Source: Nitrosopumilus sp. K4 (GTDB lineage: Archaea; Thermoproteota; Nitrososphaeria; Nitrososphaerales; Nitrosopumilaceae). Taken from it: a stretch of 64,000 nucleotides of DNA. Of the stretch, positions 9,442 through 23,842 are shown in pieces. The first letter of the stretch is position 1; every line of letters starts with the position of its first letter. The translations under genes were made by a program, and so were the position numbers. The notes below the pieces were generated by a model. That model was not told the origin of the DNA. It did no database searches and worked only from the letters and a program-made list of their open reading frames with translations. The DNA is taken from NCBI RefSeq assembly GCF_018128925.1, contig NZ_CP067007.1:1-64000 (forward strand), written 5' to 3'.

Positions 9442-9516
9442 GTGGCATCTTTGTATATTACTAAATAAAAATTGCACTATTTTTTAAAAAATTCACAGCA
9501 GAAATTCTATGCCATC

Positions 9517-18536: not shown

Positions 18537-18698
18537 ATGTCTGTTGAAGTAACCTGTGGAAAATGTGGAGAAAAGATCACAAACATGAAGATGCTAAAAG
18601 CATTGAAAGATGTAATGAATCCTTACAATGGAAAGTGTCCATCTTGTGGACAAAAGCTATCAACCTCAGAATTTTCTCTTGATGTACAAGAAAACTGA
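18537..18698 (+). CDS. Small zinc-ribbon protein
   Basis: A 53-residue ORF starting ATG at 18537. Two CxxC knuckles (CGKCGEKI and CPSCGQKL, about residues 7-10 and 34-37) form a zinc ribbon separated by a short helix. It has no signal peptide. Role unknown; it sits between the thiolase operon and the ribonucleotide-reductase locus. Confidence 0.65.
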   Translation: MSVEVTCGKCGEKITNMKMLKALKDVMNPYNGKCPSCGQKLSTSEFSLDVQEN

Positions 18699-18779
18699 TC
18701 TAAATGCTTTTTGTGTTTGCTCTTGTAAATCTGAAATGTTACATATGGGCTTTGTTCAAAATTGAAAACTGATCTAAAT
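18690..18779 (+). repeat. 16-bp direct repeat upstream of the NrdD-like gene
   Basis: GAAAACTGATCTAAAT occurs at 18690-18705 and again at 18764-18779, 74 bp apart. The first copy overlaps the end of the zinc-ribbon gene. Both lie upstream of the HTH/NrdD-like gene, in a region rich in GATC. Confidence 0.7.
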
Positions 18780-18798
18780 ACTTTGCTTTTCAGATCAT

Positions 18799-18859
18799 GT
18801 TTTGATCCAAACTTGTGATCCAAATTGATGGAATATGATCTAGTCACAAGTCTTATTTA
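18799..18859 (+). promoter_or_regulatory. Promoter and probable operator of the NrdD-like HTH gene
   Basis: An inverted repeat, ACTTGTGA (18811-18818) and TCACAAGT (18844-18851), has arms 33 bp apart centre to centre, about three helical turns. The second arm abuts the TATA-like CTTATTTA (18852-18859), which is about 26 nt before the ATG at 18882. GTTTTGATC lies at 18799-18807. A protein on these arms would cover the site of TFB. The same CACAAGT abuts the TATA box of the ribonucleotide reductase gene. Confidence 0.6.
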
Positions 18860-18881
18860 CTCCTAATTTAATGAACAAATC

Positions 18882-20975
18882 ATGGAATTGAGTGAGGGAG
18901 TAGCAGAACCAAAACGAAGTGGAATCCTTCAATCAACATCAAAACGTGTTAGAATGATCTTTTCTGTAATGGCGAGTCCTAACAGAATCGATATCTTAAG
19001 AATCCTTAATTCCAAAGGACCTCTGACTTATTCAGAATTAAAATCTCTTGCTGGATTCAAATCCAAAAAAGAAAGCGGAAAATTTGCATACCATCTCAGA
19101 AAACTATTGAGACAATCTCTTGTTGCATTAAACAAATCTGAAAGAAGATACACAATCACAAATCTTGGAAAACTTGTCCTAAGTCTAGCAAGACAGATCG
19201 AAGAGCGTTCAATTATTGAAAGTGGAAAGATGTATGTTAGAACATCGCATGAATCCATTGAGGAATTTAATTCTCATAAAATCATACAATCATTAGTTAG
19301 GGAAGGAAGCCTTCCATTAGAATTAGCACAAAAAATTACTGAAGAAGTAGAAAACAGAATTTACAAATATCAGACTACATACCTCACAGGCTCATTAATT
19401 CGAGAAATGGTTAATTCTGTATTATTAGAGCATGGTCATGAAGAATACCGAAACAAATTGGCACGCCTAGGCCTGCCTGTATTTGATGTTCAAGAAATGC
19501 TCACAAACCTAGATAATGTAGATAATGGAGCCGAGGGACTGTTATTTAATACAGGTCAGAGAGTTTTCGCTGAACATCTATTAACAAATATTCTGCCAAA
19601 AGATGTAGCAGACTCTCATCTTTCAGGAGATTTGCATATAACAAATCCGGGAGTGTGGTCAATGATTCCTGATACAATATTTGTTAATGTTAAAGAACTA
19701 ATTGATGATGGAGTTGATCTTGGAGGAAAATATCTTGACGTATCAAGAATCCCTGCATCAAAATCACTTGATGAAATAACTTCTGCATTATCTGTAATTA
19801 TTTCACTTCTTTCAAAAGAAGCTTCACAAGAAATTGTTTTAGATGGTGTAACACAATTATTTACAAAACATTCAAAGAATCTTGAAGAATTAGAACAAAA
19901 ACTTGCAAATGCATTTGCCACTGCATCCACTACATCAAAATACAATAAAACAAGCACTCGTGTTTCAATTAGATTACAACTAGGTTCTGATACAAAAATT
20001 ATTAATTCAATTATCAACGCATACAAAAATTACACAAAGATTACACCAGTACCAAAAATTGGTTTGATTGTTGATTATGAAAAAGGCAAAGTTTCCGATG
20101 TATCTGAAGCATTAGCAGAAATAATTTCAATTGGTGGAAATGTAATGTTTGCAAAAGGACAAACATCAAGTTATGGAATTACAAATCCAACAACAAAGAA
20201 TTCCGGTCCATTATCTATTGCACTACAATCTGTCTCAATTAATCTTCCAAGGCTTGCATTTGAATCAAACAAAGATGAGACATACTTTAGAGCAAGACTT
20301 GCATTACTTATGAAACCAGCACTTGCTTCTATGGCATTAAGAAAGAAAGACATATCAGATCTTACAAGACGGGGTCTCAATCCAATCCTTGCAAAGAATA
20401 CTCAATACATGCAAAGAAGTTCCGTGTCTCTAAATGTCAATCTTGTAGGTCTCAAAGAAGCAGTTTACAATATACTTGGTTTCCAAGATAACAAAGAGGG
20501 TAAGGAAATTCTCCACAAAGTAATTGAAACTGCCGTAGATGTTGGAGCTAAAAAAGGAAAGGAAATTGGTGATCCTGTAGCTATATCTATGATTGAGACT
20601 GAAGGCGCTACTAGATTTACTAATCTTGATGGCGAAAAATATGGTAAAAACTCAGCTCTAAACACCATGGAAGATGACTCTTATTCTCAGGGTGTAGTGA
20701 TTAATGCCTCAGAAATTACCGAATTTACGAACAAAAGCGAGCCTATTTCAGAGTGCAACAAACTAGCAAAGACGCTCAATGGAGGTCTGTTGATTAAATT
20801 ACAAATTGACAAGGATGCCAAGCCTGCAGATATCAAAAAATCCATTGAAAAGGCTGCAGATTTGACTAATTCATTCAAACCTGAAAAGAAAGTTGCAATT
20901 TGTGGTGAATGTGGATTTAAGGATGAGCCATTTGAGGACAAGTGTCCTAAATGTAAGTCACCTTATGTTGTCTGA
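18882..20975 (+). CDS. HTH/ATP-cone/NrdD-like protein lacking the glycyl-radical site
   Basis: Residues about 18-95 are an ArsR-like winged helix (SPNRIDILRILNSKGPLTYSEL). Residues about 108-190 resemble an ATP cone, the nucleotide sensor of ribonucleotide reductases. The rest looks like the body of anaerobic reductase NrdD (DLHITNPG, SVSLNVNLVGLKEAV). It ends in a zinc ribbon (Cys674, 677, 688, 691) only six residues before the stop; the glycyl-radical motif RVxGY that follows the zinc site in true NrdD is absent. I therefore infer a nucleotide-sensing regulator rather than an enzyme. The next gene is class II ribonucleotide reductase. Confidence 0.8.
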   Translation: MELSEGVAEPKRSGILQSTSKRVRMIFSVMASPNRIDILRILNSKGPLTYSELKSLAGFKSKKESGKFAYHLRKLLRQSLVALNKSERRYTITNLGKLVLSLARQIEERSIIESGKMYVRTSHESIEEFNSHKIIQSLVREGSLPLELAQKITEEVENRIYKYQTTYLTGSLIREMVNSVLLEHGHEEYRNKLARLGLPVFDVQEMLTNLDNVDNGAEGLLFNTGQRVFAEHLLTNILPKDVADSHLSGDLHITNPGVWSMIPDTIFVNVKELIDDGVDLGGKYLDVSRIPASKSLDEITSALSVIISLLSKEASQEIVLDGVTQLFTKHSKNLEELEQKLANAFATASTTSKYNKTSTRVSIRLQLGSDTKIINSIINAYKNYTKITPVPKIGLIVDYEKGKVSDVSEALAEIISIGGNVMFAKGQTSSYGITNPTTKNSGPLSIALQSVSINLPRLAFESNKDETYFRARLALLMKPALASMALRKKDISDLTRRGLNPILAKNTQYMQRSSVSLNVNLVGLKEAVYNILGFQDNKEGKEILHKVIETAVDVGAKKGKEIGDPVAISMIETEGATRFTNLDGEKYGKNSALNTMEDDSYSQGVVINASEITEFTNKSEPISECNKLAKTLNGGLLIKLQIDKDAKPADIKKSIEKAADLTNSFKPEKKVAICGECGFKDEPFEDKCPKCKSPYVV

Positions 20976-21085
20976 ATTCCGTAATTGAAAAACTAGTTCC
21001 GATCTTTTTTAGAAAACTTTTTGATCCATTTCAGATGTACGATCATCGTCAGCTGTTATCAATATTATGCCAATATGAAGTTCAT

Positions 21086-21113
21086 AGGAGTGGTGTAAAA
21101 AATATTGACTCCT
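21086..21113 (+). repeat. Stem-loop in ribonucleotide reductase upstream region
   Basis: AGGAGT (21086-21091) and ACTCCT (21108-21113) can pair around a 16-base AT-rich loop. It lies upstream of the probable TATA box, so it is more likely a DNA-binding site or chance than a leader RNA. Confidence 0.25.
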
Positions 21114-21124
21114 GAAAGCGACAA

Positions 21125-21156
21125 GATCAAAACTTTTCGAGCACACAAGTTATATC
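21125..21156 (+). promoter_or_regulatory. Promoter and probable operator of ribonucleotide reductase
   Basis: GATCAAAAC (21125-21133) is the reverse complement of the GTTTTGATC upstream of the NrdD-like gene. CACAAGT (21144-21150) abuts TTATAT (21150-21155), the likely TATA box. Transcription would start near 21178; a GGGGAG at 21178-21183 could serve as Shine-Dalgarno for the TTG at 21191. The rest of the 215-base intergenic region shows no gene. Confidence 0.55.
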
Positions 21157-21190
21157 CCAAATGTTCTTACCCTCTTCGGGGAGATTATAA

Positions 21191-23842
21191 TTGGATAATT
21201 CACAAATAGAAAATACTATCAATGAGATCCGTAAGCGCAGTGGCGCAGTAACGGCTTTCAATAAAGATAAGATTTCAAATGCCATTTACCGGGCATTAGC
21301 AGCCACATCTAAAGCCGATCGTGAGCTTGCAGATCAACTAGCAGACAAAGTTGTTGATAAATTAGTAGAGCAAGGATTTACAAGTACTAGAACGCCTAGT
21401 GTTGAGGACATTCAAGATATTGTAGAGTCTACTTTGATTGATAGTGGCCACAGTGATATTGCAAAGGCCTACATTGTCTATAGACATGAGAGAAGAAAAC
21501 TTAGAGACGAAAAAATGAAAGTCTTAAACTCAAAGGCCTTAGATCCAGTTTCTAAGAAATTTGATCTTAATTGCTTAAGAGTTCTCGCATCAAGATATCT
21601 GTTCAGAAACGGAAAGAACGAGATTACTGAAACACCTACTCAGATGTTTGAGAGAGTCGCAATTCTGGTTGGAATTGGTGATCTTTTGTATGATGCACAA
21701 GTATTTGACAAGTCAGGAAACATTACACAAAATATCGAAGAAGCACAATCATATCTTGAAAAACTAGATAATTTTGATTACAAATTCAAAATTGGAGAGT
21801 ATTTCTTAAACAAATGGCATTTCAGATCATTGATCAACCACTATGTTACTCTGGCAAACAAAGGTCAGATGAAAGTAAGCTTCAAAGATCTTTTGACTCT
21901 GATTGCTGCAAAGAAATTAGACAACTATGCAGACAAAATTTCTGAATACTTTGAACTGATGACTAGCCAAGACTTTCTACCAAATTCACCAACAATGATG
22001 AATGCAGGTGGAAGGCTTGGTCAATTATCAGCATGCTTTGTTCTTGGAATGGAAGATGGCATGGAAGAAATCATGAAATCCACTTCAGATGCGGCATTAA
22101 TTTTCAAATCCGGTGGTGGAGTTGGAATCAACTACTCTGATCTTCGTGAAGAAGGTGACATTGTAGCATCTACATCTGGTGTTGCATCAGGACCAGTATC
22201 CTTCATGAATATTATCAATACAGTCACTGAAGTTGTAAAACAAGGCGGCAAGAGAAGAGGCGCCAACATGGGGATCATTGAAGCATGGCATCCTGATGTT
22301 GAAAAATTCATTACAAACAAGACCCAACCAGGAATTCTTGAGAACTTTAATGTCAGCGTTGGAGTTTGGGAAGACTTTTGGCATTCTCTCGTAAATACTG
22401 AAGACGGAAAATATATTCTACGAAGCCCACGTGATAGAAAACCAGTAAAAGAAATCAATGCACATCAACTAATTGATCTAATTGCACTGTCAGCATGGAA
22501 AAGTGCAGAACCTGGTTTGATCTTCTTTGATCAAATTAACAAATACAATGTATTTGCAAAAGCAAGACAAGCTCCTCTAAGAGCAACTAATCCTTGTGGT
22601 GAACAAAGCCTCTATCCATACGAATCATGCAATCTTGGTTCTATCAACTTGGTAAATCTTGTTAAACGAAAAGCCGATGGTGGATACGAATTTGATTGGC
22701 AAAGATATGAAGAGACAATCAGAAAGACTACCAGATTCTTGGATAATATCATTGATGTAAATCATTACCCAGTACCAGAAATCAATGTAGCATCAAAAGA
22801 ATCAAGAAGAATCGGATTAGGTGTAATGGGAGTTGCAGATCTATTGTACAAACTAAGAATACCATACAACTCCAAAGAAGGATATGAGCTACAATCAAAA
22901 TTATCTGAAGCTCTGACATATTATTCCATGGAAGAAAGTGTGGCACTTGCAAAATCTCGTGGTGAGTTCCCACTGTGCTCAAAGACAGAATACCCAGAAG
23001 GAAAAATCCCTGTTGCTGGATATTATGAAAAACCAAAAGAGATGCATTCTTACGAATGGGATGCACTAATTGAGAAAATCAAAAAGCATGGAATCCGAAA
23101 TGTTCTAACCACAACTGTTGCTCCAACAGGTACATTGTCAATGATTGCAGATTGTTCTAATGGAATGGAACCTGCATTTGCACTTGTATTTGAGAAGAGA
23201 GTAACTGTTGGAAGATTCTTCTATACTAACAAAATCGTTGAAGAAGTCCTAAAAGAAAATGGTCTATACACTGATGAAATACTGGCAAAGATTGCGGATA
23301 ACTATGGTTCACTCAAAGGAATTCCAGAAATTCCAGAGTGGATGCAACAAGTCTTTGTCACTGCAATGGATATTCATTGGGCAGACCATCTCATGGCACA
23401 AGCCGTATGGCAGGACTGGATTGGAAATGCAATTGCAAAAACAATCAACATGCCATATGATGTAACTGCAGATGATGTTAAATCTGCATATCTATTGGCA
23501 CATGAATTAGGTCTAAAAGGAATCACAGTTTATCGCGATGGTTCTAGACACACCCAAGTACTTCACATGACAAGTGAAAATGCAGAAAAAACATTTGATG
23601 TATCACCAAGCGAGCATATCACAGAATATGTTACAACTAACATAACAAATCAATACATCAAATCCCAAGTTAATGCTGCACTTGCATTAAAGGTACATGA
23701 TGAAGAAATCAAATCAGAACCACATCAACCTGAGGAAATTTCAGAAGATCGTCTATGTCCAACATGCAAAAACAATCTTGTGTTTGTAGAAGGTTGCAGT
23801 ATCTGTATCGAATGTGGATACAGTGGTTGTACTTCTGGATGA
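21191..23842 (+). CDS. nrdJ: Adenosylcobalamin-dependent ribonucleotide reductase (class II)
   Basis: Converts ribonucleotides to deoxyribonucleotides for DNA synthesis. An ATP cone covers about residues 10-100. Cys282 (SACFVLG) and the radical-site loop N467-P-C469-G-E471 are the family's active-site residues; YPYESCNLGSINL follows. A C-terminal zinc-ribbon-like Cys cluster (CPTC..CSICIECGYSGC) supplies the reducing thiols. No NrdB small subunit is nearby, as expected for class II. Start TTG. Thaumarchaea make their own cobalamin, which fits. The adjacent NrdD-like HTH gene and shared promoter motif suggest common regulation. Confidence 0.92.
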   Translation: MDNSQIENTINEIRKRSGAVTAFNKDKISNAIYRALAATSKADRELADQLADKVVDKLVEQGFTSTRTPSVEDIQDIVESTLIDSGHSDIAKAYIVYRHERRKLRDEKMKVLNSKALDPVSKKFDLNCLRVLASRYLFRNGKNEITETPTQMFERVAILVGIGDLLYDAQVFDKSGNITQNIEEAQSYLEKLDNFDYKFKIGEYFLNKWHFRSLINHYVTLANKGQMKVSFKDLLTLIAAKKLDNYADKISEYFELMTSQDFLPNSPTMMNAGGRLGQLSACFVLGMEDGMEEIMKSTSDAALIFKSGGGVGINYSDLREEGDIVASTSGVASGPVSFMNIINTVTEVVKQGGKRRGANMGIIEAWHPDVEKFITNKTQPGILENFNVSVGVWEDFWHSLVNTEDGKYILRSPRDRKPVKEINAHQLIDLIALSAWKSAEPGLIFFDQINKYNVFAKARQAPLRATNPCGEQSLYPYESCNLGSINLVNLVKRKADGGYEFDWQRYEETIRKTTRFLDNIIDVNHYPVPEINVASKESRRIGLGVMGVADLLYKLRIPYNSKEGYELQSKLSEALTYYSMEESVALAKSRGEFPLCSKTEYPEGKIPVAGYYEKPKEMHSYEWDALIEKIKKHGIRNVLTTTVAPTGTLSMIADCSNGMEPAFALVFEKRVTVGRFFYTNKIVEEVLKENGLYTDEILAKIADNYGSLKGIPEIPEWMQQVFVTAMDIHWADHLMAQAVWQDWIGNAIAKTINMPYDVTADDVKSAYLLAHELGLKGITVYRDGSRHTQVLHMTSENAEKTFDVSPSEHITEYVTTNITNQYIKSQVNAALALKVHDEEIKSEPHQPEEISEDRLCPTCKNNLVFVEGCSICIECGYSGCTSG

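Follow-up and report, generated by a model that had tools for sequence, protein, structure and literature searches.

Organization of the gene A-nrdJ locus

The DNA analyzed here, referred to below as the window, comprises the first 64 kb of the 1.65-Mb single-contig genome of Nitrosopumilus sp. K4, a member of the Nitrosopumilaceae. The features of interest, together with related ones from further loci, are compiled in Table 1. The central gene, which we call gene A, is followed on the same strand by nrdJ, and GATC sites are clustered 5′ of both. A sequence-only reading of the window had proposed that the gene A product represses itself and nrdJ through a CACAAGT motif adjoining the TATA box of each gene, as an archaeal counterpart of NrdR, the bacterial repressor of ribonucleotide reductase (RNR) genes. 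All strings that it cited upstream of the two genes were found at the positions given for them; the TATA boxes at gene A and nrdJ are predictions from sequence. Just 5′ of the GATC array of gene A we also observed a short zinc-ribbon-like ORF of about 52 AA with two CxxC pairs (window 18540-18698), and the same coding pattern occurs upstream of gene A in distant relatives, e.g., L104-L108.

Table 1. Positions of genes, domains and promoter features considered in this work. Coordinates refer to the window unless another source is named.
Feature	Position	Strand	Basis or remark
GATC array 5′ of gene A (starts 18771, 18793, 18804, 18817, 18837)	18771..18840	.	Enrichment and helical spacing across relatives
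Left arm ACTTGTGA of reported inverted repeat	18811..18818	-	Not conserved
Conserved element GTCACAAGTCTTATTTA, CACAAGT abutting gene A TATA box	18843..18859	+	Conservation; genome-unique
Gene A, predicted HTH + ATP-cone + catalytically dead NrdD-like protein, 697 AA	18882..20975	+	Pfam, hhalign, Foldseek, residue alignment
HTH region of gene A, residues about 26-100	18957..19181	+	Near invariant across ammonia-oxidizing archaea
ATP-cone of gene A, residues 117-189	19230..19448	+	PF03477, E 8e-8
C-terminal zinc ribbon of gene A (C674, C677, C688, C691)	20901..20954	+	Retained from NrdD
GATC triple (21001, 21023, 21041) after gene A stop codon, 5′ of nrdJ	21001..21044	.	Most relatives displayed
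nrdJ element GATCAAAACTTTTCGAGCACACAAGTTATATCCC, CACAAGT abutting TATA	21125..21158	+	Nearly identical in a subset of relatives; genome-unique
nrdJ, adenosylcobalamin-dependent class II RNR with its own ATP-cone	21191..23842	+	TIGR02504 722 bits, PF03477
Ultraconserved GATC element GGATCGATCAATTC...GATCAATTGATC between rfcS and GINS-type gene	K4 genome C1:1266706-1266802, outside window
Four GATC within 56 bp, intergenic beside cdc6	K4 genome C1:1539370-1539425		Observed in this genome
Orphan Dam-family methylase gene, directly beside amo genes	L165:4980-5840

Gene A encodes a predicted inactive relative of class III RNR

The order of HTH, ATP-cone and NrdD-like region read from the sequence was confirmed by Pfam, which placed HTH_20 at residues 30-82, the ATP-cone at 117-189 and NRDD at 442-693. 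The HTH scored over the cut-offs of general profiles (HTH_20, 32.9 bits vs. 27; DUF7347, 40.8 vs. 27.6), and its score with the ArsR/SmtB metalloregulator profile NF033788 (23.7 bits) was below the cut-off of 55. Homology to NrdD was upheld by hhalign, which aligned residues 111-695 with true NrdDs over 562 columns with a probability of 99.9, and by Foldseek, in which the best matches of the gene A model were all class III RNRs (E 5e-13); as the AlphaFold model is weak (mean pLDDT 56, and below 50 in the N-terminal third), only the match of the barrel was taken from it. The equivalog profile of class III RNR, TIGR02487, was not reached (83 bits vs. cut-off 326).

What the earlier reading had missed is that every catalytic residue of class III RNR is absent. 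The first active-site (partner) Cys, the finger-loop Cys and the glycyl Gly are replaced or missing in 16/16 family members aligned, and alignment with true NrdDs showed that the glycyl-radical loop after the C-terminal zinc ribbon has been lost from the gene A protein. In the same alignment the neighboring true NrdDs retain the Cys residues and, where the C-terminus is complete, also RVTGY/RITGY; the true NrdD of L158 ends, in its frame, before the glycyl motif. The zinc ribbon and the NLPR motif are retained in nearly all members of the gene A family. Nucleotide binding by the gene A ATP-cone is uncertain because it carries VRTS instead of the canonical VxKRDG signature.

Identity of the segment comprising the HTH and the ATP-cone is 97-100% for most Nitrosopumilaceae and 86-91% for most Nitrososphaeraceae, and this segment stays conserved while the identity of the whole protein drops to 45-56%. 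Within the protein, conservation is highest in the HTH and its linker, and divergence of the barrel is much more rapid. Judged by these alignments, the gene A product is a predicted catalytically dead class III RNR carrying an almost invariant HTH. Many orthologues (L035, L038-L042, L045 and others) are also extended at the N-terminus by an Asp-rich, low-complexity stretch that precedes the HTH.

Gene A is linked to RNR genes of two classes

The gene A family was present in 118/119 good Nitrosopumilaceae genomes and in 34/36 good genomes of Nitrososphaeraceae, and it is widespread in the phylum. Among Nitrosopumilaceae loci of sufficient length, nearly all have nrdJ directly 3′ of gene A, and the same gene order occurs in Nitrososphaeraceae and Nitrosocaldus-like genomes. 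Two contigs labelled Phycisphaerales and Proteobacteria (L038, L090) hold a Nitrosopumilus-like locus and are probably misbinned. Among more distant relatives, a true RNR gene on the same strand directly follows the gene A homologue in 7/51 loci, namely nrdD in L148, L149, L158, L284, L289 and L290 and a class II gene in L279; in the remaining 44 no RNR gene was found within the stretch around the homologue. As either nrdD or a class II gene can follow, gene A tracks RNR genes of two classes, and its linkage to RNR genes thus proved stronger than the sequence-only reading had claimed.

The absence of NrdR, also part of that reading, held in a search with TIGR00244: no protein scored over the curated cut-off in any of 61 genomes, Nitrosopumilus sp. 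K4 included, and nine bacterial controls were positive. To our knowledge, archaea mostly lack NrdR. We found no description of the gene A protein family or of its promoter in open-access papers.

A conserved element abuts the TATA box of gene A

Upstream of gene A, perfect 8-bp arms 25 nt apart, ACTTGTGA (18811-18818) and TCACAAGT (18844-18851), form an inverted repeat that had been taken for an operator. The left arm was seen in the window only and is not conserved in relatives, and the inverted repeat was rejected as an operator. The right arm, with CTTATTTA directly after it, was kept by evolution together with the TATA box. Comparison of 84 distinct gene A promoters from Nitrosopumilaceae showed TCAYAAGTCTTAWTTA to be gene-specific and nearly free of variation, amid surroundings that drift; a matrix built from these promoters scored 46.7 bits at gene A, and its next site (13.7 bits) lies inside a gene. 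The element occupies the exact BRE and TATA position and runs on through the TATA box. An element of this kind, deeply conserved, unique in the genome and next to the TATA box of the gene itself, fits autoregulation.

Deeper genera keep the element with small changes. Most Nitrososphaeraceae examined have TTTACAAAGTAGTTTTAAT at gene A, again abutting the TATA box, and Nitrosocaldus-like genomes have TTTTACAAAGGTACTTTAAT or a sequence close to it in the same position; one Nitrososphaeraceae genus and L143 are exceptions to the Nitrososphaeraceae-type element. A search for the Nitrososphaeraceae-type pattern in four genomes gave no excess over control. Two of these genomes have the pattern without mismatch, and in both gene A was the sole full match; in the other two, gene A was among several sites with three mismatches. 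In one Nitrososphaeraceae genus (L244-L247, L251, L255), palindrome-like TTGACCTTTTGGTCAA or close variants stand upstream of gene A where Nitrosopumilaceae have GATC arrays.

CACAAGT is a lineage-restricted feature of nrdJ promoters

At nrdJ, CACAAGT (21144-21150) is followed by TATAT. The promoters of this gene fall into two types at the same place. Type A, found in the window, carries GATCAAAAYTTTTCGAGCACACAAGTTATATCC, which is nearly identical across genera and genome-unique (54.2 vs. 12.1 bits); type B lacks CACAAGT. The alignment of promoters across relatives thus bore out the conserved element at gene A and not a general link to nrdJ, since CAYAAGT-TATA was present in only 20/75 distinct nrdJ promoters, and in Nitrososphaeraceae no CACAAGT was seen at nrdJ. 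More distant genera show partial likenesses, such as GTCACGGTTATAT or CTCAATCTTTATTTAACTCC. By eye, the C/T variant of the gene A motif did not covary with the type of nrdJ promoter. The mirrored strings GTTTTGATC (18799-18807) and GATCAAAAC (21125-21133) are present in the window and are not a conserved feature. In type B promoters (e.g., L035, L046) we observed a near-palindromic TGTCAATATTATTGAAC-like element in the intergenic region between gene A and nrdJ; it has no strong match in the genome of Nitrosopumilus sp. K4.

By count, the motif is at chance level. CACAAGT occurs 10 times in the window vs. 9.7 expected, and TCACAAGT 52 times in the genome vs. 47 for a reversed control, and a wide regulon based on either was rejected for want of enrichment. 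Its position is distinctive: within 110 nt upstream, only three of 1,694 ORFs have an intergenic, sense-strand CACAAGT, and it abuts a TATA-like box only at gene A and nrdJ. The proposed genome scan for the motif beside TATA therefore singled out these two promoters by position and not by raw counts. When the genome was scanned with matrices of the gene A and the nrdJ element, each gave one strong site. With a flank-weighted gene A matrix nrdJ ranked 20th of 779 promoters, so that the part shared by the two genes is just the heptamer; as a finder of nrdJ this matrix was discarded.

Phased GATC arrays precede gene A, nrdJ and replication genes

Sites for GATC are 16-17 fold enriched upstream of gene A (226 vs. 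13.9 expected in 67 regions of 110 bp) and also abundant in the gene A-nrdJ intergenic region (285 vs. 53 expected), with 2.8-fold enrichment in the nrdJ coding control. The triple after the gene A stop codon was seen in most, not all, of the relatives displayed, and with both types of nrdJ promoter. Upstream of gene A, counting from the motif, site starts are most frequent at -27/-28, -17/-18 and -7, and the distances between sites have maxima at 10-11, 19-21 and 39-42 bp. With a period of 10.5 bp, phasing reached R 0.48 (0.43 after thinning similar sequences) vs. 0.07-0.09 in simulations (P≤0.0005), which place sites independently in each region, so that shared ancestry inflates the significance even after thinning. 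By eye, GATC arrays were seen only in Nitrosopumilaceae. As a putative cis feature shared by gene A and nrdJ, the helically phased GATC arrays are more widespread than CACAAGT.

Ranking of 897 intergenic regions by GATC density placed that between rfcS, encoding the small subunit of RFC, and a GINS-type (Sld5-domain) gene first, gene A second and nrdJ fifth. The rfcS and GINS-type genes form a divergent pair, and the element between them is kept in 29/30 Nitrosopumilaceae loci (L331-L360), with 185 GATC vs. 21.9 expected. The genome has only about 10 places with four GATC within 70 bp; gene A, rfcS/GINS and an intergenic region linked to cdc6 are among them, and others of the dense clusters are intragenic or close to genes of unknown role. 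The cdc6 cluster is about 13 kb from the cumulative GC-skew maximum, and repeated sequences in this intergenic region look like origin boxes. Ranking of promoters by AT-flanked GATC pairs also singled out gene A, but gave no clean regulon.

An orphan Dam-family methylase is encoded across Nitrosopumilaceae

The K4 genome encodes a Dam-family methylase (TIGR00571, 294.7 bits, over the cut-off of 114.85) beside genes that we take to be amoC, amoX and amoA, and no restriction gene was seen nearby. Among proteins of solved structure, it is closest to DpnM (E 3.5e-62), followed by E. coli Dam (about 1e-34), and these two enzymes are GATC-specific. PF02086 was found in 24/25 Nitrosopumilaceae genomes searched and in few other genomes of the order sample. 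In Nitrosarchaeum BD3 (locus L046 here), m6A was reported at 9,446/9,618 GATC sites (98.2%), and the methylase of this strain is unpaired, without a cognate restriction partner (PMC6329791).

Discussion

We consider it rather likely, from the comparisons above, that gene A encodes an RNR-derived regulator of itself and of RNR genes, which would work like NrdR and stand outside the NrdR family. Such a protein would descend from a class III RNR and combine an ArsR-like winged HTH with an ATP-cone and a NrdD barrel with its zinc ribbon. The ATP-cone, possibly along with the old effector site of the RNR, may sense nucleotide levels. The conserved (T)CAYAAGT element would then be the binding site of the protein, which would sit next to or on the TATA box of its own gene and, in some lineages, also at nrdJ; this binding would adjust the level of gene A itself and the supply of RNR, presumably by repression. 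We favor ACAA(A)GT as the protein's own site because it is shared at gene A by Nitrosopumilaceae and Nitrososphaeraceae; the GATC arrays may be left for another factor or for methylation. Against the proposed regulator stands the finding that nrdJ lacks CACAAGT in most relatives although the HTH is nearly unchanged. The rank of nrdJ with the flank-weighted matrix, the divergent ATP-cone signature and the 44/51 distant loci with no RNR gene found nearby also count against it.

Like NrdR, the gene A protein has an ATP-cone and a DNA-binding domain, here a predicted one, and shares with it the linkage to RNR genes, probable autoregulation and sites, putative for gene A, that overlap the promoter. 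Helical phasing matters for NrdR boxes (PMC12051234). The two proteins differ in that NrdR has a zinc ribbon where gene A has an N-terminal winged HTH, the zinc ribbon of gene A being C-terminal and NrdD-derived; gene A also has a full, dead NrdD barrel and no family match at the NrdR cut-off. With class III NrdD (PF13597, TIGR02487) it shares the ATP-cone, barrel and C-terminal zinc ribbon, but it lacks the catalytic cysteines and the glycyl radical site and has an extra N-terminal HTH. It resembles ArsR-like winged-HTH regulators (HTH_20, DUF7347) in its HTH fold, by profile, and differs from them in the fusion of this HTH to RNR domains.

The same observations can be explained in other ways. 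The protein could be an RNR accessory, that is, a dead paralogue that binds NrdJ/NrdD or dNTPs and uses its HTH for dimerization, which would suit the neighborhood of RNR enzyme genes and the retained barrel and NLPR motif; as the pattern of conservation, strongest in the HTH and linker and with a much faster diverging barrel, argues against it, we regard this as very unlikely. At the level of DNA, what is conserved near the TATA box might be an unusual core promoter (BRE/TATA), or another factor might bind there. If these sequences were just strong or atypical core promoters, read by TFB/TBP with no regulator of their own, this would explain why the element lies exactly at the BRE and TATA position and extends through the TATA box. 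One would, however, expect a general core promoter to recur, and the element is found once in the K4 genome, its Nitrososphaeraceae version showing no excess over control, which makes this explanation a somewhat improbable one. Coincidence between two AT-rich promoters is a possible, if doubtful, source of the shared CACAAGT: the heptamer count, the low rank of nrdJ with the flank-weighted matrix and the lack of the motif at nrdJ in most relatives point that way, whereas its restriction to the TATA boxes of two neighboring, functionally linked genes, its place within a 30-bp nrdJ element nearly identical across genera and the occurrence of GATCAAAA 18 bp before the nrdJ motif, matching the -17/-18 GATC peak of gene A, speak against chance.

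The GATC arrays suggest a different kind of control, in which methylatable clusters govern the gene A, nrdJ and rfcS/GINS promoters. Dam-type methylation, or hemimethylation after passage of the fork, would direct a GATC-binding factor and couple precursor and replication genes to chromosome replication, with gene A as a target and perhaps the reader. The enrichment at gene A and before nrdJ relative to the coding control, the helical phasing, the conserved rfcS/GINS element, the dense clusters that include cdc6, the orphan methylase of nearly all Nitrosopumilaceae searched, with DpnM as its closest solved relative, and the methylation of almost all GATC in Nitrosarchaeum BD3 (PMC6329791) are consistent with it. 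At 98% methylation, however, only a transient hemimethylated state could carry information, and some dense clusters are found within genes or next to genes with no known role; we entertain this explanation tentatively.

In E. coli, GATC clusters of the Dam/SeqA type occur at oriC and at the dnaA promoter. The K4 arrays are similar in that methylatable GATC sites lie near replication genes in a genome with an orphan Dam-family methylase, and unlike in that they belong to archaeal promoters. Combined with the proposed regulator, they could form a system in which a dead-RNR transcription factor and Dam-methylated, phased GATC arrays keep dNTP synthesis, by way of gene A and nrdJ, in step with the chromosome cycle of ammonia-oxidizing archaea, together with replication genes at rfcS/GINS and perhaps in the cdc6 region; we consider this scheme unlikely as a whole.

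The strongest result is the putative regulator family itself, in which a dead RNR carries an HTH and is encoded next to RNR genes. Of the new leads, the phased, methylatable GATC arrays at genes for dNTP supply and replication lend themselves best to testing. Together with the family-wide orphan Dam methylase, these arrays make replication-linked epigenetic control directly testable in an archaeon. Re-use of a dead RNR as the sensor of a regulator would clearly exemplify the conversion of an enzyme into a transcription factor, here in archaea that rank among the most abundant in the sea, and the conservation of the gene A control region suggests a home-grown sensor-switch for DNA-precursor supply in ammonia-oxidizing archaea.
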